Origin: Myxococcales bacterium
GTDB lineage: Bacteria; Myxococcota; Myxococcia; Myxococcales; Myxococcaceae
Reading direction: 5' to 3'
Assembly: GCA_016191815.1 (NCBI GenBank)
Contig: JACPVI010000039.1
Location: 1 to 64,000 of the forward strand
Length of the DNA: 64,000 nt
The notes beneath the pieces were generated by a model that was given only the letters and a program-made list of their open reading frames with translations, searched no databases and was not told the origin of the DNA. Both the position numbers and the translations under genes were made by a program. This document shows, piece by piece, positions 36,235 to 51,192 of the stretch (positions within the stretch are counted from its first letter, which is position 1; every line of letters begins with the position of its first letter).

Positions 36235-36585
36235 TCATGGAGGATCGAGCCTCAAGAACCAGCGCAAGCCCTCCTCGACCCTGCTCATGACATCGCGTGG
36301 GAGTACACCCACGCGCTCTACGAGGTCGGCCTTGTTCAGGGTTGCGACTTGCGAGGCGTTGGCGACTGTGGCTCGCGGCAGTCGCGTCGCCTTGCGGGAC
36401 AACAGCATGTTTCCCGGCGCGCTCGCGAGGTGCCGGTTGCTCGTCAGCGCGCAGACGACCACGGTGCTTAGCGCGCTGGCGTTGACCTCGTCACGCTGCA
36501 GCACCAGCGCCGGGTGTCGATAGCCGGGCTCGGACCCCTTCGGCTCCCCGAAGTCCGCCCACCAGATCTCGCCTCGACGGATCAC
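36235..36585 (-). CDS. mazF: MazF/PemK-family endoribonuclease toxin
   Basis: This 116-residue protein starts VIRRGEIWWADFGEPKGSE, with the family GEIWWADF motif and the conserved RHPALVLQ strand. VVVCALTSN supplies the catalytic Thr region. MazF toxins cut mRNA at short motifs and stop growth unless neutralised by MazE. The GTG start overlaps the antitoxin stop by 3 nt, as usual for such pairs. It is convergent with ndk, 19 nt away. Confidence 0.88.
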   Translation of the reverse strand: MIRRGEIWWADFGEPKGSEPGYRHPALVLQRDEVNASALSTVVVCALTSNRHLASAPGNMLLSRKATRLPRATVANASQVATLNKADLVERVGVLPRDVMSRVEEGLRWFLRLDPP

Positions 36586-36830
36586 TGGCGTCCCCGGAGG
36601 ATCGCCTTGGTCCGACCACGCATCGCCGCGGCGGTCGGATCGTCGGCGGGTTGGCCCCCGCGAGCGATGGCATCGTTCCATGCCCTCGTGGCGTCCTGGG
36701 GCTCCCGATGTGCGGCCACGAACTGCCGCGCCGCGAGCGCCAGGAGGCGGCTGCGCGAAAGGTGCATGCGCCGCGCGCAGTCCTCGATCGCGTCGAACAG
36801 GTCGTCGGGCAGGGAGATCGCCGTCTTCAT
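36582..36830 (-). CDS. mazE: Ribbon-helix-helix antitoxin of the MazEF pair
   Basis: This 82-residue protein has an N-terminal RHH domain (MKTAISLPDDLFDAIEDCAR, then MHLSRSRLLALAARQFV) and a disordered C-terminal part (DDPTAAAMRGRTKAILRGRQ) that would wrap the toxin. The ATG follows GGAGAT. A perfect 13-bp palindrome lies just upstream and is the likely autorepression site. The domain is RHH rather than the AbrB fold of classical E. coli MazE, as in many MazE-type antitoxins. Confidence 0.85.
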   Translation of the reverse strand: MKTAISLPDDLFDAIEDCARRMHLSRSRLLALAARQFVAAHREPQDATRAWNDAIARGGQPADDPTAAAMRGRTKAILRGRQ

Positions 36831-36846
36831 ATCTCCGACGGTATAA

Positions 36847-36859
36847 CTGGTATTACCAG
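36847..36859. promoter_or_regulatory. Palindromic operator of the MazEF operon
   Basis: CTGGTATTACCAG is a perfect 13-bp palindrome 16 nt upstream of the antitoxin ATG. On the minus strand it is followed by TTATAC, a possible -10 box, so binding would block transcription. An RHH dimer on such a palindrome is typical. Confidence 0.6.
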
Positions 36860-37031
36860 CTCGCAACTGCCCCGCTGAGCCCGTCAGGAGACCCCCGAGT
36901 CGTCAGGAGGCCAAGGGCCCAAACGTATGTGGGAGACTATGCGGACGAACGGCGGCGGAGTCAGACTCGGGTTTCGCCCTTTTCCGCCTGCTGCGGCCGG
37001 TCTCTCCGGGGCCGGGCATCGGTGCTCGGCT

Positions 37032-40789: not shown

Positions 40790-41290
40790 ATGCCTTCGAG
40801 TGCCCTCGAGTTCATCCAGTCCCGCAACATGCGCAAGGACCTCACCGACTTCAGGACCGGCGACACCGTCCGCGTGCACTGGAAGGTCAAGGAGGGCGAC
40901 AAGGAGCGCGTCCAGCCCTTCGAGGGGATCGTCATTCGCAAGACCAAGGGGAAGAACACCGCCACCTTCACGGTGCGGAAGGTCTCCTACGGCGTGGGAG
41001 TGGAGCGGATTTTCCCTCTGCACAGCCCGCGGTACGAGAAGATCGAAGTCATCAGCAAGGGCAGCGTGAGCCGCAACCGGCTCTTCTACCTGCGCAACCT
41101 GCGCGGCAAGGCCTCGCGCGTGGAAACGCAGGAGGAGGGCGAGGGAGCCGGGCCAGAGGCCCAGAGCGCGCCCGCCTCCGAGGCCCAGGCGGCAGCGGCC
41201 CAGCCAGCCGCCGAGGCGGCTGCTGCGGAGAAGCCCGCTGCGGAGAAGCCTGCGGGCGAGAAGCCGGCGAAGAAGGCCAAGAAGAAGTAG
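40790..41290 (+). CDS. rplS: 50S ribosomal protein L19 with C-terminal extension
   Basis: L19 lies at the 30S-50S interface. The first 115 residues match the family ([42 protein letters not shown]). A further 50 residues of Ala, Glu, Lys and Pro repeats (for example [20 protein letters not shown]) are extra to the usual fold and would extend from the ribosome. Total length is 166 residues. Confidence 0.95.
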
Positions 41291-41411: not shown

Positions 41412-43292
41412 ATGTACCTCCTCGAGCTTGCGGTGCAAGGGGTTCGGGGCTTCTCGCCCACCTCGCGGATACCGCTCAAGCCAGGCTACACGGCGCTGCT
41501 GCCGCCCGGGAAGGGGGAGCTTCCTCCGCTCTGCGGCATGGTGGTGAGCATGTTCTTCTCCGATGGGCGAGGAGGGGACATCGTCTACATGGCGCAGGGG
41601 CAGAAGGTGGCCCGCGCCGGCATCACGGTGTTTGGAGACGATCAATCCACCTACCGGCTGGTGCGGGAGCTGGGGACCGCCGGGGTGCTCCACCGGCTCA
41701 ACCGAGGGAGCAAGCAGTTCGAGATCCTGAGCCAGGACCTGACGGAGATCGGTCAATTCCTGAGGAGTCAGGTAGGGGCGCCGACCAAGACGGCGCTGGA
41801 GCAGCTCTTCTGCTTCACCGCGGCCCAGCTGCCCACCCGGCGGCCCAAGACGAAGGCATCGGTGACCTCCAAGCCCTCGCTGGCGCCGGTGCAGCTACCG
41901 CAGGCCGAGCCGGTGAGCGGAGATCTGCCCACCCTCAAGACCAGGCTTTCAGAGCTGGAGAGGGAGCACGCGCTTTCCAAGGAGGTCGATGAGCTGCAGT
42001 TCAAGCAGGACGGCATCGCCTCGCAGCTTTTCGAGCTGGAGGGCAAGCTCAAGGGCTCCGATGGGCTCAAGGCGGCGGTGAAGGAAGCGGAGGCGGCCGC
42101 GGCGGCCGCGCCCACCGCGGAGTCGCTGAAGGTCCCCAAGGACATCGTCGCCCGGGCGGAGCGCTACCCGATGCTCCAGCAGAAGCGGGACGAGGCTTTG
42201 GCGCGGCTCGACCGTGAGCGCGAGCAAGGCGCCGAGCAGGCGGAGCCGAGCTACGTGGAACCGCTGTACCGGAACGCATCCTTCTGGGCGAGCGTGGCGG
42301 CCGGGCTGGTGCTCCTGGTGCTGGGGAGCCAGCTGTCGGGCTACCTGCGTTACGTGGCGCTTTTGGACATACCGGCCTTCGGTTTCGCGGCGCTCTTGGC
42401 GCTGAGGTACCTGGAGGAGTTGCAGGCCGGCAGCAAGGTGAGCCACCGGGGCGGTTTCCTGGCCGCGCGGGAGAAGCGGATCCGCGAGGACTTCGAGGGC
42501 GAGGTGGCCGAGGTGCGAGCCGCGATGACGGTGGCTGGAGTCGAAACGGTGCAGGAGCTGATCGAGGGGCTCTCCCGCCGGGGGCTCCTGTTGGAGAAGG
42601 CGGCCGAGTTGAGGCGTCAGCTCGAGGCGCTGGAGAAAGAGCCGGACTACGCGAGCGCCGCCTCTCGCTATCAGCAGCTCAAGGCAGAGCAGGATCAGAT
42701 CAACGCCCGGCTCCTGGAGAAGGGCGGCTACGTGCGGGACGTGCGCGAGGTGGAGAGGGAGATCGCCCGGACGAAGGAGGCGATCGCCAAGCTCAGATCT
42801 CCCCAGCCGGCGGCGCCGGTTGCCGGGCCTGCCCCGAGCGGTTCCTCGCCGCTGCAGGAGGATCCCTCACCGCAGTTGCTCTCGCTGGCGGCGGAGTTGT
42901 TCGGCTGCGACCTGCCCGCGGCGGCGCAGCTCGCCACTGACCGGTGCGGCCAGTATCTGGTGGCGCTGACCGATCGCCGTTACCAAGCGGTGGAGCTGGA
43001 CGGGGGTGGGAACGCGTGCGTGGTGGCTTCGGGGCGGAAGCTCGCGGCGGGGGAGCTGCCCGGAAAGGACCTGGATCTGCTTTACCTGTCGCTGCGGCTG
43101 GCGCTGGTGGAGAAGTTCTCGGCGCGGCAGAAGGTCCCGATGTTGATCGAGGATGGGCTGGTCTGCGTGGAGGAATCCAAGCATTCGCTCCTGGGCCGGA
43201 TGCTCAAGCACCTTGGGACGCTGACGCAGGTGCTGCATCTGGCGCCCGGGCGTGGGGCGGCGGAGTCGGCGGACTCGGTGGTGAATGTCTGA
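41412..43292 (+). CDS. Degenerate SMC/YhaN-like coiled-coil membrane protein
   Basis: This 626-residue protein follows the plan of SMC-like ATPases: an N-terminal strand-turn (MYLLELAVQGVRGF ... KPGYTALLPPGKGELPPL), long coiled coils with many Glu, Arg and Lys, two membrane segments at about 291-335 and a C-terminal half-domain (GKDLDLLYLSLRLALVEKF, VPMLIEDGLV, LGTLTQVLHLA). In active members these positions hold GxxGxGKS, LSGG and a DDPF Walker B; here the P-loop and signature are lost and only part of Walker B remains. It is probably a non-hydrolysing structural relative. Its neighbours are ribosomal and DNA genes. Confidence 0.7.
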   Translation: MYLLELAVQGVRGFSPTSRIPLKPGYTALLPPGKGELPPLCGMVVSMFFSDGRGGDIVYMAQGQKVARAGITVFGDDQSTYRLVRELGTAGVLHRLNRGSKQFEILSQDLTEIGQFLRSQVGAPTKTALEQLFCFTAAQLPTRRPKTKASVTSKPSLAPVQLPQAEPVSGDLPTLKTRLSELEREHALSKEVDELQFKQDGIASQLFELEGKLKGSDGLKAAVKEAEAAAAAAPTAESLKVPKDIVARAERYPMLQQKRDEALARLDREREQGAEQAEPSYVEPLYRNASFWASVAAGLVLLVLGSQLSGYLRYVALLDIPAFGFAALLALRYLEELQAGSKVSHRGGFLAAREKRIREDFEGEVAEVRAAMTVAGVETVQELIEGLSRRGLLLEKAAELRRQLEALEKEPDYASAASRYQQLKAEQDQINARLLEKGGYVRDVREVEREIARTKEAIAKLRSPQPAAPVAGPAPSGSSPLQEDPSPQLLSLAAELFGCDLPAAAQLATDRCGQYLVALTDRRYQAVELDGGGNACVVASGRKLAAGELPGKDLDLLYLSLRLALVEKFSARQKVPMLIEDGLVCVEESKHSLLGRMLKHLGTLTQVLHLAPGRGAAESADSVVNV

Positions 43293-43324
43293 CCCGCCGG
43301 CTAGAACGCTCGGCGGAGGTGGAC

Positions 43325-43699
43325 GTGGCGGAGCCAGGGTTGAGGCGGGCATTCGGCGGGGAGGCGGAGGACGCGGCGGTCTCGCACCTGGAGCGCAAGG
43401 GCTATCGGGTTCGGGCGCGGAACTTCGTTTGCCCGTACGGCGAGCTGGACGTGGTGGCCGAGGACGGCGAGGTGGTGGCCTTCGTGGAGGTACGGATGCG
43501 CTCCAACGCCGCCTGGGGAGACCCCTCGCAAACGGTGAGTGGGAAGAAGCAGCGGCGAATCGTGAAGGCGGCGCTCCACTACCTTTACCGTCACGGGCCG
43601 CTGGGCAAGATGGTGCGGTTCGACGTGGTTTCGGTGGTGGGCCGGGGTGAGAAGGCGCAAGTCGAGCACATCCCTGACGCCTTCGATGCGGGGATGTGA
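43325..43699 (+). CDS. YraN-family (UPF0102) putative nuclease
   Basis: This 124-residue protein has the restriction-endonuclease-like YraN core: GGEAEDAAVSHLERKGYRV, then YGELDVVAEDGEVVAFVEVRMRS (the E/D ... VEV active site) and KKQRRIVKAALHYL. YraN proteins have a nuclease fold related to Holliday-junction resolvases but an unclear function. GGAGG 5 nt upstream of the GTG at 43325 supports this start. It overlaps rsmI by 3 nt, a pairing (yraN-rsmI) common in bacteria. Confidence 0.88.
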   Translation: MAEPGLRRAFGGEAEDAAVSHLERKGYRVRARNFVCPYGELDVVAEDGEVVAFVEVRMRSNAAWGDPSQTVSGKKQRRIVKAALHYLYRHGPLGKMVRFDVVSVVGRGEKAQVEHIPDAFDAGM

Positions 43700-44535
43700 G
43701 GTTGGGCGGGACGCTCTATCTGGTGGCCACGCCGATCGGGAACCTGGCGGACATCACCCACCGAGGCGTTTCCACGTTGCGGTCGGTCTCGTTCGTGGCA
43801 GCCGAGGACACGCGCCACTCCCGCAAGCTGCTCGAGGCGTATGGCATCTCGAAGGAGCTGGTGAGCCTTCCGGCGTTTGCGGAGCGGGAGCGGGCGGGGG
43901 CGATCCTGGAGCGAGTGGAGCGCGGCGAAGACTGCGCGGTGGTGACGGACGCGGGGAGCCCGGGGATCAGCGACCCGGGTGAGAAGCTGGTAGGGGAGGC
44001 GATCGCTCGGGGGATCCGGGTGGTGCCGGTGCCTGGGCCTTCGGCGCTGGTGGCGGCGCTCTCGGCCTCGGGGCTACCGGCGGGGCGGTTCCACTTCCTG
44101 GGCTTCCTGCCGCGCAAGGGGCCGGAGCGGCGAGCGCTGATGGAAGAGGCCGGTGCGCTCTCGGCGACCTTGGTCATCTACGAGTCGCCGCGCAGGCTCG
44201 GGGAGACGCTGGAAGACCTGCTGGAGGAGCTCGGCGACCGGCGGGCGTGTGTGGCGCGGGAGCTGACGAAGGTGCACGAGGAGCTCGTGCGTGGCCGCCT
44301 GAGCGATCTTGCCGGGCGCTACCGTGGAGCCGAAGTGTTGGGTGAGGTGGTTCTGCTGCTCGAGGGGCGGGCAGGAAAGGCGCGGTGGTCGGAGGAGGAG
44401 GTCCGCGGCGCGTTGGAGAAGGGGCTCGGCGCAGGGGAAAGGCTCAAACCCCTCTCGACCGAGATCGCCAAGCGAGCTGGCTGGACGTCGGGCGAGGTCT
44501 ACAAGCTCGGCACGCAGCTGGCCCGGAGGCGCTGA
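43696..44535 (+). CDS. rsmI: 16S rRNA (cytidine-1402-2'-O) methyltransferase
   Basis: RsmI (279 aa) methylates C1402 in the 16S decoding centre. The tetrapyrrole-methylase fold is shown by LYLVATPIGNLADITHRG, AAEDTRHSRKLL, VVTDAGSPGISDPGEKL and YESPRRLGETL. The C-terminal domain has helix KPLSTEIAKRAGWTSGEVYKL. The GTG start overlaps yraN. The stop is followed directly by a heptamer repeat and a convergent gene. Confidence 0.95.
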   Translation: MRLGGTLYLVATPIGNLADITHRGVSTLRSVSFVAAEDTRHSRKLLEAYGISKELVSLPAFAERERAGAILERVERGEDCAVVTDAGSPGISDPGEKLVGEAIARGIRVVPVPGPSALVAALSASGLPAGRFHFLGFLPRKGPERRALMEEAGALSATLVIYESPRRLGETLEDLLEELGDRRACVARELTKVHEELVRGRLSDLAGRYRGAEVLGEVVLLLEGRAGKARWSEEEVRGALEKGLGAGERLKPLSTEIAKRAGWTSGEVYKLGTQLARRR

Positions 44536-44581: not shown

Positions 44582-45862
44582 CTAGAAATTGAACACCCCG
44601 ACGACATCGATCCTGAAGATCGACGTCTCGGTGGCCCGGAAGCGGCGCGACACCATGTCGGTGCGCCAGTCGAAGTTGGGGTTGATCTCCTTGGGGTTGG
44701 CGCTGATGTCGACGGTGCCGTTGCCGTCGAGGTCCTTGCCGATCGACTCGTCGGTGAGGGTGTGCTCGGTGTTGTAGAGGAGCGAGGCGGTCGCCTTGAG
44801 GTGGACGTACTCCGCGGCGTGAGCCACCAAGCCGAAGCTGCCGCCGAGCTGGAGGTAGTCCTGGGTGTAGTGGAGCTTCTGGAAGACGTCGCTCAGCTCG
44901 TTGAAGTAGCGTCCCTCGGAGACGTAGGTGACGTACCCGCGGATGTCCATCGCCACCTTCTGGTGCATCGCCGGCTCTTCGTAGGCGTTGAACTCCGAGC
45001 CGATGATGAAGCCCCCCACGTGCGGCGGCCGGATGCCCGTGTCGGAGCGGGTCCACTGGTCGGTGCCGCAGTTCTCCGGCCGGCCCATGGTGCGCGGATC
45101 CGGGTGGTCGCAGTTCGAATACCAGCCCGGGCCCCGGTAGGGCAGCGTGTAGTGGATCTGGAAATACGGGTCGACCACCCCCACTCGGCGCGAGAGCGAG
45201 GTGTAGAACTTGTAGCGGTGGATGCGGTCGCCGATCCGCCCCTGCGAGCTCGCGGAGGTCGGCAGCGTGGGGTCGATGCCCTCCGCGGTCGGCGCGGTGT
45301 AGTCCACCCCCAACAGCCACATCGGCTTGGAGGGGTCTTTCTTCTGGTTGAAGATCGCGTAGGCCATCCCGAAGGTCATGTCTCCCAGCCCGCCGCGGAA
45401 GACGTCCTGCTGATCCCCTTCCCTGACCGTGAACAGCTCGCGCTCCCCCGCCTGCGACACCGGGCAGTTGGGATCGAGCAGCTGCCCGTCGGCCTGCAGG
45501 CAATTGTTGTAGATGGTGGAGTTCTCGGCGCTGGTCCCATTGGCGAACCGCCACCTCTGGGTCCGGGAGAAGACGAGCGGGAGGCCGTAGTGGAACTCCA
45601 AGTCCTCCCACAGGCCCATCCTCAGGTCCATGTTCAGCCGAGTGTCGATGCCGACAAACCTCAGCTCGCTCACGTCCTGCACGTCGTCGTTCTGGTGGTG
45701 CTCCCGGGTGAGCTTGAAGCGGTGCTGGGTGCGCTGGAAGCCGATGTCGATGAACATCCCGAAGGGATCCTTCTCCTCGAACGAGGAGGCGATCCGGGTC
45801 AGCTCCGCGGCTTTCGCGGACTGCGCCGCAAGCAACAGCAAGGCAGCTCCAAGGCGTCTCAT
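44582..45862 (-). CDS. Predicted outer-membrane beta-barrel protein
   Basis: This 426-residue protein has a signal peptide (RRLGAALLLLAAQSAKA) and alternating polar/hydrophobic strands with aromatic ends, including a C-terminal strand ending VVGVFNF, the classic terminal Phe of outer-membrane barrels. Loops contain a calcium-like DLDGNGTVD and two pairs of cysteines (NNCLQADGQLLDPNC, SNCDHPDP ... ENCG). I cannot name the family. GGGAGGTCG precedes the ATG. A heptamer repeat follows its stop. Confidence 0.8.
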   Translation of the reverse strand: MRRLGAALLLLAAQSAKAAELTRIASSFEEKDPFGMFIDIGFQRTQHRFKLTREHHQNDDVQDVSELRFVGIDTRLNMDLRMGLWEDLEFHYGLPLVFSRTQRWRFANGTSAENSTIYNNCLQADGQLLDPNCPVSQAGERELFTVREGDQQDVFRGGLGDMTFGMAYAIFNQKKDPSKPMWLLGVDYTAPTAEGIDPTLPTSASSQGRIGDRIHRYKFYTSLSRRVGVVDPYFQIHYTLPYRGPGWYSNCDHPDPRTMGRPENCGTDQWTRSDTGIRPPHVGGFIIGSEFNAYEEPAMHQKVAMDIRGYVTYVSEGRYFNELSDVFQKLHYTQDYLQLGGSFGLVAHAAEYVHLKATASLLYNTEHTLTDESIGKDLDGNGTVDISANPKEINPNFDWRTDMVSRRFRATETSIFRIDVVGVFNF

Positions 45863-45931
45863 TCGACCTCCCGGAAGGCGCGCGCCCGCCGGTGTAAACC
45901 CTCGCAAAGACAGCGAGATGACGCGGTGACG

Positions 45932-48463: not shown

Positions 48464-48500
48464 TTCCCTCTCCCTCCGGGAAAGGGTCAGGGTGAGGGGC
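48464..48500 (-). repeat. Dispersed CCCTCACCC palindromic element, copy B
   Basis: On the minus strand GGCCCCTCACCCTGACCC is followed by a GGGAGAGGG arm. The element overlaps the last codons of encapsulin and supplies its stop codon (TGA of CCCTGACCC). Confidence 0.7.
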
Positions 48501-49338
48501 CTTCGAGCGTGCAGATCGCGTCGGGGTGCTTGATGCGGAGGATCAAGCTCTCCAGCACCCGGAACGGGTAATTCATGCTGGTGGCGCCCAGGTAGGCGGT
48601 CACCATGTCCAGCGCCAGCGCGAGGTCCATGTTCTCCCGGCCGGTGGACACCACCACCCCCGAGTCCCCGCGCAGGCGGTTGGACTGGTGGACCCCATCG
48701 GAGGCGAGCTGGCGCAAGGTTTCGATCTCCAGAACGCCGGTCTTCTCGTAGATGCGGTGGAGCAGCGAGTACAGCCTGGGCGAGAGGACCACCGCGTAAG
48801 GCCCGTAGTGCCCTTGCTCGGTGAGCTTCCGAGTGGCCTCCACCACCACCTGGTAGCCGCGGCCTGGCTCGCCGAAGTCGCCCAGCGAGGCGCTGAGCCG
48901 ACCGGTGGCGTTCATCAGCCCTTCGTGGCCGAGCTTCGAGTCGCCGTAGAAGACCAGCTCGTCCTCCTGCTGGGCGCAGAGGGCGGCGGCGCCGGCGGCG
49001 GCGGAGACGTCGAGCGGCATGTGGTGGACTCGCGCCGCCTCGATGTCACGCCAGTGGAGCAGGAAGTCCTTGTAGATGATGGGGATGGTCTTGAACCTGC
49101 GACGGTCGGCGAAGACGGTGGCGGTGGGCTGCTCTCCGACGATGTCCACCGCTCCGGGAGAGACGCCGGTGTACTCGTCGTGGGGAACGGTCTGCACGCC
49201 CGGGCCGAGCGGTCCGTAGAGATCGAGGAGCCGGCGGCCCACCAGGGAGCGGCGGGCCACCTCGGTGACGGTCTGGTTGAGGCGCGCCCACTCCTCGGCG
49301 CGAAGCGGGTTCTCGGCGTGGCCCAGAAAATCCGGCAT
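48487..49338 (-). CDS. encA: Encapsulin shell protein
   Basis: This 283-residue HK97-fold protein self-assembles into an icosahedral protein shell that houses iron-storage cargo in Myxococcus. It begins MPDFLGHAENPLRAEEWARL and has the encapsulin segments RSLVGRRLLDLYGPLG, KTIPIIYKDFLLHWRDIE and ASDGVHQSNRLRG, very like EncA. The ATG at 49338 follows AGGAGGCGGCC. The final residues (EGPSP) and stop come from a dispersed repeat, so the C-terminus differs from the usual end. No cargo gene (ferritin-like, rubrerythrin or DyP) or targeting-tail neighbour was found nearby. Confidence 0.95.
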   Translation of the reverse strand: MPDFLGHAENPLRAEEWARLNQTVTEVARRSLVGRRLLDLYGPLGPGVQTVPHDEYTGVSPGAVDIVGEQPTATVFADRRRFKTIPIIYKDFLLHWRDIEAARVHHMPLDVSAAAGAAALCAQQEDELVFYGDSKLGHEGLMNATGRLSASLGDFGEPGRGYQVVVEATRKLTEQGHYGPYAVVLSPRLYSLLHRIYEKTGVLEIETLRQLASDGVHQSNRLRGDSGVVVSTGRENMDLALALDMVTAYLGATSMNYPFRVLESLILRIKHPDAICTLEGPSP

Positions 49339-49425
49339 GGCCGCCTCCTTGGGATCCGAGCCACGAAAATGGCGGAGCGCTCGAGGGTCAAGCCGGGGCG
49401 CGAGCGGACTGGCGCTCAAAGTGCA

Positions 49426-49453
49426 TTGCCGAACGGGTGACACCCCGTAGAGT
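49426..49453 (+). promoter_or_regulatory. Possible murJ promoter
   Basis: TTGCCG (49426-49431), a 16-bp spacer and TAGAGT (49448-49453) lie 11 nt before the murJ ATG. The intervening sequence has no strong Shine-Dalgarno. Confidence 0.35.
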
Positions 49454-49464
49454 CGCGGGAACGC

Positions 49465-51192
49465 ATGGAGGACCACACTTCACCTCCGGCCTCTTCCGCC
49501 GCGGCGCCGCTGCCGCAGGCCGCGGCCGTGGAGCCGCCGCTGCCCGAGTCCGGAGCTGGGGCGGGCGCGCACGCCGCGCGAGGCGCCTTCCTGGTGGCGG
49601 CGGGCATCTTCCTCTCCCGACTGATGGGGCTGATCCGCCACCGGGTATTCGCCCACTACTTCGGCAGCTCGATGGCGGCCGCGGCGTTCATGGCGGCGTT
49701 GAGGATTCCCAACTTCCTGCAGAACCTCTTCGGAGAAGGGGCGATGTCCGCCTCGTTCATCCCGGTCTACGCGCAGCTTTTGGGCAAGCGCGAGAGAGAG
49801 GAGGCGGACAAGGTTGCGGGCGCGGTCTTCGGAGTGCTCTCGCTGGCGACCTCGCTGCTGGTGGCCGCCGGCGTCTGGGGCACTCCCTACTTCATCGACG
49901 CGCTCGCTCCGGGGCTCCAAGGGAGGACCCGGGAGTTGACGGTGACCTTGGTCCGCATCCTCTTCCCGGGGATCGGCCTGTTGGTCGTCTCCGCCTGGTG
50001 CCTGGGCATCCTGAACAGCCACCGGAAATTCTTCCTCTCCTACGCGGCGCCGGTGGTGTGGAACGGGGCGATCATCGCCACCCTGCTCGCCTTCGGCGGC
50101 CGTCTCGATGAGGAGCGCCTGGCGGTCTACGTGGCCTGGGGCACCGTGGCCGGGAGCGTGCTCCAGTTCGGCGTCCAGCTTCCGTCGGTGCTGGCGCTGC
50201 TCGGGCGCTTCCGGCCCTCGCTGAACGTGCGGCTCCCCTCGATGCAAAAGGTGCTGCGGGGTTTTGGGCCGGCGGTGGTCGGGCGGGGAGTGGTGCAGAT
50301 CAGCGCCTTCCTCGACCTTGCCTATGCCTCGCTGGTGACCGACCGCGCGATCGCGGTCCTCTCCTTCGCCCAGACGCTCTACCTCCTGCCGGTGAGCCTG
50401 TTCGGGATGTCCATCTCGGCGGCGGAGCTGCCGGCGATGTCGCAGGCGACCGGCACCAGCGAGGAGGTGGCCCAAAAGCTCCGCGAGCGGCTGGAGCAGG
50501 GGCTAGTGAGGCTGGCGTTCTTCGTGGTGCCCTCGGCGGCGGCGTTTCTCTTGCTCGGGGACGTCGCCAGCAGCGCCCTGTACCAGACCGGACGCTTCTC
50601 GGGCGCGGACGCGCGGTTCGCATGGTACATCCTGATGGGCTCGGGAGTCGGGCTGCTCGCCGCGACGATGGGGCGGCTGTACTCCTCGGCGTTCTACGCG
50701 CTCCACGACACCAAGACCCCGCTCAAGTTTGCCGTGGCGCGGGTGGCGGTCGGCGCGGCGCTGGCGCTCTACGCGGTGCGGGTGCTCCCGGGGCAGCTCG
50801 GCGTTCCCGTCGAGCTGGGCGCGATCGGCATCACCGCCGCGAGCGGAATTGCGGCTTGGATCGAATACCAGCTCCTCCGCCGGACGCTGGCCCGGCGGAT
50901 CGGGGACGTGGGGCTCGGGCTGCGCCGCTACGCAGCGCTGTGGGGCGGAGCGCTGCTTGGAGCTGCCGCGGCGCTCTTGGTGAAGTGGGGGCTCGCGCGA
51001 GGCTTCGGGCCGGACTCCACCGCGCGCGCCGAGTGGGGCGGCTGGCTCCTGCCGATGCCGGCGCTCAACCCGGTGCTCACCGCGGCAGTCGTCCTGGGCG
51101 TGTACGGCTCCGTGTATTTCGCCGTGACGCACTTCTTGGGCGTCCCGCAGGCCGGAGCGGTGGTGCGCAAGCTGCTCCGGCGTAGGCAGTAA
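49465..51192 (+). CDS. murJ: Lipid II flippase MurJ
   Basis: MurJ (575 aa) flips lipid II across the inner membrane for peptidoglycan synthesis. After a Pro/Ala-rich lead of about 40 residues it has about 14 membrane segments, with the family motifs LSRLMGLIRHRVFAHYFG, RIPNFLQNLFGEGAMSASFIPVY and FFVVPSAAAFLLLG. The extra N-terminus is not part of the fold. It diverges from encapsulin across a 126-bp gap. Confidence 0.95.
   Translation: MEDHTSPPASSAAAPLPQAAAVEPPLPESGAGAGAHAARGAFLVAAGIFLSRLMGLIRHRVFAHYFGSSMAAAAFMAALRIPNFLQNLFGEGAMSASFIPVYAQLLGKREREEADKVAGAVFGVLSLATSLLVAAGVWGTPYFIDALAPGLQGRTRELTVTLVRILFPGIGLLVVSAWCLGILNSHRKFFLSYAAPVVWNGAIIATLLAFGGRLDEERLAVYVAWGTVAGSVLQFGVQLPSVLALLGRFRPSLNVRLPSMQKVLRGFGPAVVGRGVVQISAFLDLAYASLVTDRAIAVLSFAQTLYLLPVSLFGMSISAAELPAMSQATGTSEEVAQKLRERLEQGLVRLAFFVVPSAAAFLLLGDVASSALYQTGRFSGADARFAWYILMGSGVGLLAATMGRLYSSAFYALHDTKTPLKFAVARVAVGAALALYAVRVLPGQLGVPVELGAIGITAASGIAAWIEYQLLRRTLARRIGDVGLGLRRYAALWGGALLGAAAALLVKWGLARGFGPDSTARAEWGGWLLPMPALNPVLTAAVVLGVYGSVYFAVTHFLGVPQAGAVVRKLLRRRQ

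Follow-up and report, generated by a model that had tools for sequence, protein, structure and literature searches.

The gene at positions 41412–43292 of the window, by which we mean the whole 64,000-nt stretch of Myxococcales DNA analysed here, encodes a 626-aa protein (P0001) that is almost certainly an SMC-fold pseudo-ATPase. Taken as a whole, it is explained best, and with moderate confidence, as an ATP-independent, SMC-like scaffold that would be tethered to the inner membrane and whose ancestor would be a P-loop ATPase with a YhaN-like plan. Its reading frame is uninterrupted on the + strand from the ATG at 41412 to the stop at 43292, and the following parts were delimited.

41412–43292, + strand: gene of the SMC/Rad50-fold protein without Walker A (626 aa; open frame; conserved across the phylum).
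41412–41849, + strand: N-lobe of the head (aa 1–146; AlphaFold model, Rad50 match Z 26.5).
41496–41531, + strand: degenerate Walker A position, LLPPGKGELPPL (aa 29–40; compared with Rad50 GPN-GAGKSS and ortholog GGSGSGKTT).
41829–41846, + strand: LPTRRP motif at the end of the N-lobe (aa 140–145; approximately the Q-loop site of SMC/Rad50 heads, as placed by eye).
41925–42239, + strand: coil arm 1, with the conserved LQFxxDG(L/I) motif (aa 172–276; AlphaFold model, alignment conservation).
42276–42410, + strand: predicted membrane hairpin (aa 289–333; hydropathy, model, conservation).
42417–42797, + strand: coil arm 2 (aa 336–462; AlphaFold model).
42861–43289, + strand: C-lobe of the head (aa 484–626; profile match to the Rad50 C-lobe, E 9.8e-10).
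43056–43070, + strand: signature (LSGG) position, reading LPGKD (aa 549–553; sequence, alignment with Rad50 and orthologs, conservation).
43134–43160, + strand: Walker-B-like VPMLIEDGL (aa 575–583; sequence, Rad50 alignment, conservation).

Searches with the single sequence placed P0001 in no known family. Neither Pfam nor NCBIfam held a family above the cut-off, AAA_27 (PF13514) did not match up to E 10, and phmmer against the PDB returned chance-level matches only, including the Rad50 C-lobe at E 0.87–0.89. The fold was recognized by structure prediction and by a family profile. The AlphaFold model, computed from a 55-row alignment, had a mean pLDDT of 91.7 and comprised a split head in which the N- and C-terminal lobes are joined by an antiparallel coil, the Rad50 alignment spanning aa 1–626. 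The top Foldseek matches of this model were Rad50, SMC-type, Lamassu and JetABC entries, and VIA-align superposed the head on Rad50 with a Z of 26.5 (276 residues, 2.6 A) and on SMC heads with Z values of about 20–23, so structural matches to SMC heads clearly exist. Supportively, a PDB search with the family profile retrieved the Rad50 C-lobe at E 9.8e-10, with LSGGE of Rad50 falling opposite LPAKD, while in a weak N-lobe alignment GPN-GAGKSS of Rad50 fell opposite the degenerate P-loop stretch. These results bear out the SMC-like plan of N-terminal half, coils and C-terminal half that the first-pass annotation had proposed. The middle of the coil is occupied by the hinge in SMC proteins and by the zinc hook in Rad50; the P0001 sequence contains no CXXC zinc hook, and by hydropathy and in the AlphaFold model its mid-coil region contains no globular hinge domain, a hydrophobic hairpin being located there instead.

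The motif readings on which the first-pass annotation had based its claim of a lost ATPase, LLPPGKGELPPL at aa 29–40 and LPGK at aa 549–552, were both found in P0001, and the claim itself was confirmed: Walker A is gone, the signature reads LPGK, and Walker B is partly kept in VPMLIEDGL, its region reading MLIEDG for the consensus hhhhDE. The Walker A pattern GxxxxGK[ST] was missing from P0001 and 82 more family members (83/92), and LSGG[EQ] occurred in none of the 92, the Walker-A-bearing ones included. Since both Walker A and the signature are lost, the established SMC/ABC mechanism leads one to expect neither normal ATP binding by the P0001 head nor an ATP-sandwiched head dimer.

Conservation across the family alignment was concentrated elsewhere. 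Of the N-lobe parts that were scored, the P-loop stretch was conserved least, with a mean of 0.236, a low score to which gaps contribute, versus 0.371 for the whole N-lobe. TM2, LQFxxDG, YRLVR, LYLxLRLxLxE and TQV were among the highest scored (0.41–0.48), and motifs of the C-lobe likewise ranked high. Q606, D555 and R511 of the head are conserved, and the LPTRRP motif has the consensus LPSRRP, with P141 invariant in family alignment A1. At the Walker B site, position 580 is acidic in 85 of the 92 members (E in 43, D in 42), and position 581 is D in 62 and E in 9. Because Walker B acidic residues and strand are kept in many members, a weak or unusual nucleotide contact may still be made, as judged from sequence, and the head could in principle use Walker B and other pocket residues to bind ATP or a different nucleotide and act as a slow switch. 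The partly kept Walker-B-like strand and acidic residues, the conserved Q606, D555 and R511, and the full Walker A of one class would fit such a non-canonical binder, but the P-loop stretch differs freely from family to family in both sequence and length, as a substitute binding loop would not, and we regard this reading as improbable. The ATP-independent scaffold is favoured because it is the coil, the hairpin and non-catalytic positions of the head that are conserved, and because the ATP-binding loop is missing, the protein is probably a scaffold or tether instead of a motor.

The gene is widespread and stands at a fixed site, with the following neighbours in the window.

40790–41290, + strand: rplS (ribosomal protein L19), the fixed upstream neighbour (PF01245 at 5.3e-44).
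43319–43699, + strand: yraN (UPF0102), the usual downstream neighbour, with an approximate start codon (PF02021 at 1.9e-26).
43696–44535, + strand: rsmI, next downstream and a conserved neighbour, named by sequence resemblance.

It was found in 91 of 98 relatives, in 139/145 genomes of the class, and in 77 of the 97 genomes drawn from the Myxococcota phylum. In all loci whose flank was read and in which rplS could be recognized, it lay directly after rplS in the cluster rpsP-(KH)-rimM-trmD-rplS. Close pairs gave dN/dS values of 0.04–0.29, indicating purifying selection, and among the family matches, which come from over 130 genomes, none was reported to contain an internal stop. Because the gene is conserved in relatives, fixed in position and under such constraint, it is not a chance reading frame, and the same evidence upholds the earlier suggestion of a real conserved non-ATPase family. 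Motif loss alone could hint at a decaying gene or an annotation artefact, but the conservation, the fixed locus, the lack of internal stops and the dN/dS values reject this reading, which we consider extremely improbable. A defence-system role was likewise rejected, as the PADLOC match of P0001 was chance-level only and the fixed core synteny also argues against it. Most members are about 580–770 aa long. In two proteins of 684–763 aa (L039 and L057, from genomes G075 and G066), a long Gly-rich insert separates the N-lobe from the coil, and in two of 848–1025 aa (L118 and L123, from G169 and G148 in family f12), a large insert precedes the C-lobe. A literature search found no description of the family.

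The order rplS-gene-yraN-rsmI, present in most loci of the order, together with the tight spacing between the stop of the gene at 43292 and the yraN start at about 43319, would be consistent with an operon pair of an SMC-fold and a nuclease-fold protein, analogous to Rad50-Mre11 or YhaN-YhaO and working without ATP, as YraN presumably has the restriction-endonuclease-like UPF0102 fold. This pairing appears doubtful to us, for rplS-yraN-rsmI also exists without the gene, as in three bacteria of the same bacterial family with small genomes (G019, G033 and G040), where the site is empty, and the class that retains Walker A keeps the gene by rplS while yraN, where found, is either encoded on the opposite strand or separated by kilobases. 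An obligate yraN link as the sole driver of the arrangement was rejected, given that rplS synteny outlasts yraN synteny. Candidate partner genes were limited to rplS and yraN, and both may be neighbours just through the old translation cluster. In some other families that lack the gene, an ORF with an RnhB-like motif, DEAGRGPLAGPV, follows rplS.

Several other features were seen in the window. Positions 44582–45907 (− strand), flanked by rsmI and a gene for an M23 peptidase, encode a protein of 441 aa that may have a signal peptide and has no Pfam match. An encapsulin shell protein (Linocin_M18, E 7.7e-64) is encoded at 48487–49476 (− strand), with no encapsulin cargo gene identified among the ORFs listed around it, and a MurJ-like ORF at 49465–51192 is divergent from it. 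At 36235–36866 (− strand), a PemK/MazF-like toxin (8.1e-26) and an upstream ribbon-helix-helix protein (weak, 0.0036) form what is, by sequence resemblance, an ordinary type II toxin–antitoxin pair.

The loss of the P-loop is not universal in the family. The first-pass annotation had named intact Walker A in orthologs as evidence against its reading; such orthologs occur in one distant class, whereas the other 83 members agree with the reading. In that uncultured Myxococcota class, a GK[ST] P-loop, for example GGSGSGKTT, is kept in nine of nine syntenic orthologs (L101–L105, L107, L108, L110 and L128), which represent all nine genomes examined of the class. These orthologs sit directly after rplS and match SMC_N (best 9.8e-10) and AAA_23 (2.5e-10), with weak AAA_27 matches in two of the nine (best 0.0037); their weak PADLOC matches to LmuB and GajA are mostly P-loop-driven. 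The one that was modelled (pLDDT 84.1) had the same fold and aligned with Rad50 at a Z of 27.7 over 277 residues and 2.5 A. Because nine orthologs at the same locus keep Walker A, the ancestry of the family lies in a P-loop ATPase. In a tree of the heads, built without the P-loop columns and rooted on YhaN proteins, the Walker-A class was nested inside the P-loop-less rows, and forcing the latter into one clade was not rejected (lnL difference 9.1, p-AU 0.204). The ATP site was thus lost one time or several, and the tree permits a single loss. On balance, and with about as much confidence as doubt, we read the family as a phylum-wide SMC/Rad50-fold protein without a nucleotide cycle, whose P-loop was lost, possibly repeatedly, and is kept by one class.

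Two hydrophobic segments at about aa 290–330 reached 1.69 and 1.63 as Kyte-Doolittle means over 19 aa, which are weak values in P0001. In 61 of 64 relatives, one or more segments at the same place scored 1.6 or higher, the other three relatives falling below this cut-off. In the AlphaFold model, a helical hairpin (289–307 and the start of 310–375) lies between the two long coil helices, and its second helix contains the conserved ALLDIPAFG. The two membrane segments that had been proposed to split the coiled coil were therefore recovered as hydropathy peaks and as a mid-coil hairpin in the model; from these predictions, the hairpin would insert into the membrane, and its orientation can likewise be proposed. 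The accompanying idea that membrane segments had been gained did not hold, as a mid-coil hydrophobic helix pair is present in most Walker-A-bearing orthologs, and two mid-coil hydrophobic helices also occur in intact YhaN-type ATPases from the window's bacterial family, that of the window's own genome included. Because proteins bearing an ATP site carry the hairpin, it either arose before the P-loop was lost or has no connection with that loss.

Among known systems, YhaN/SbcE-type ATPases (AAA_27, PF13514) share with the family the split head, the coils and, in several Myxococcota members, the hairpin. They differ in having Walker A (GENEAGKST), an LSxGT signature and a length of about 1060 aa or more, whereas the family is without both motifs, P0001 has no AAA_27 match, and the gene is placed after rplS. 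The adjoining genes are rplS and yraN, and a YhaO (Mre11-like nuclease) neighbour is absent. The window's genome encodes its own YhaN-type protein (PF13514 at 1.4e-29), and YhaN was the second-best match of the family profile in this genome (C-lobe, E 1.9e-12). This match would suit a heterotypic partnership, as would the fact that several of these genomes encode intact proteins of the YhaN type whose mid-coil hairpin is similar. The degenerate head would then join an intact SMC-like one, such as that of the genome's own YhaN, and modulate its ATPase at the membrane. In an ATP sandwich, however, each head supplies the signature to the other, and LSGG is lacking in every family member. Moreover, because many gene-bearing genomes lack a strong, near-full-length AAA_27 match, an obligate pair with YhaN is unlikely, and the heterotypic reading as a whole has a low probability in our view.

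Rad50/SbcC provided the best structural match of the head and the Rad50 profile match, but the family lacks Walker A, the signature and the zinc hook, has the hairpin instead, and has no adjoining Mre11-type nuclease gene. SMC, condensin and cohesin share the head fold, and differ from the family in that its hinge and ATPase motifs are absent, its coils are short and membrane segments are present. Hinge-less actinobacterial SMC variants, compared by description, resemble it in having an SMC-type head and coil without a hinge, and their ATPase domain is kept and transmembrane segments are not mentioned (PMC12153180). The combination of ATP-site loss, membrane hairpin and fixed locus in the ribosomal cluster differs from YhaN, Rad50, SMC and the hinge-less variants alike.

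For the ATP-independent scaffold, the following arrangement is proposed. The N- and C-lobes would close into a single ABC/SMC-type head, which two antiparallel coil arms would hold away from a two-helix hairpin predicted to anchor the protein in the inner membrane. The conserved surfaces of head and coil would hold a cytoplasmic partner near the membrane, so that the protein would serve as a constitutive scaffold working without ATP. We put forward this tethering role only tentatively. The partner would most likely be nucleoid DNA or a DNA-handling protein, a first guess made because the closest structural relatives handle DNA.

SMC and Rad50 proteins are defined by ATP-driven head engagement, and a conserved branch that has the head without the ATP site raises the question of what the head surface does without a motor. 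For the P-loop-less members, the orthologs that retain Walker A at this locus offer a ready comparison. If the proposed history is true, the family would form a natural series from a membrane SMC-like ATPase to a pure scaffold at one unmoved genomic locus. The gene is also an unnamed Myxococcota core gene in the ribosomal cluster, probably also present in laboratory-tractable myxobacteria.
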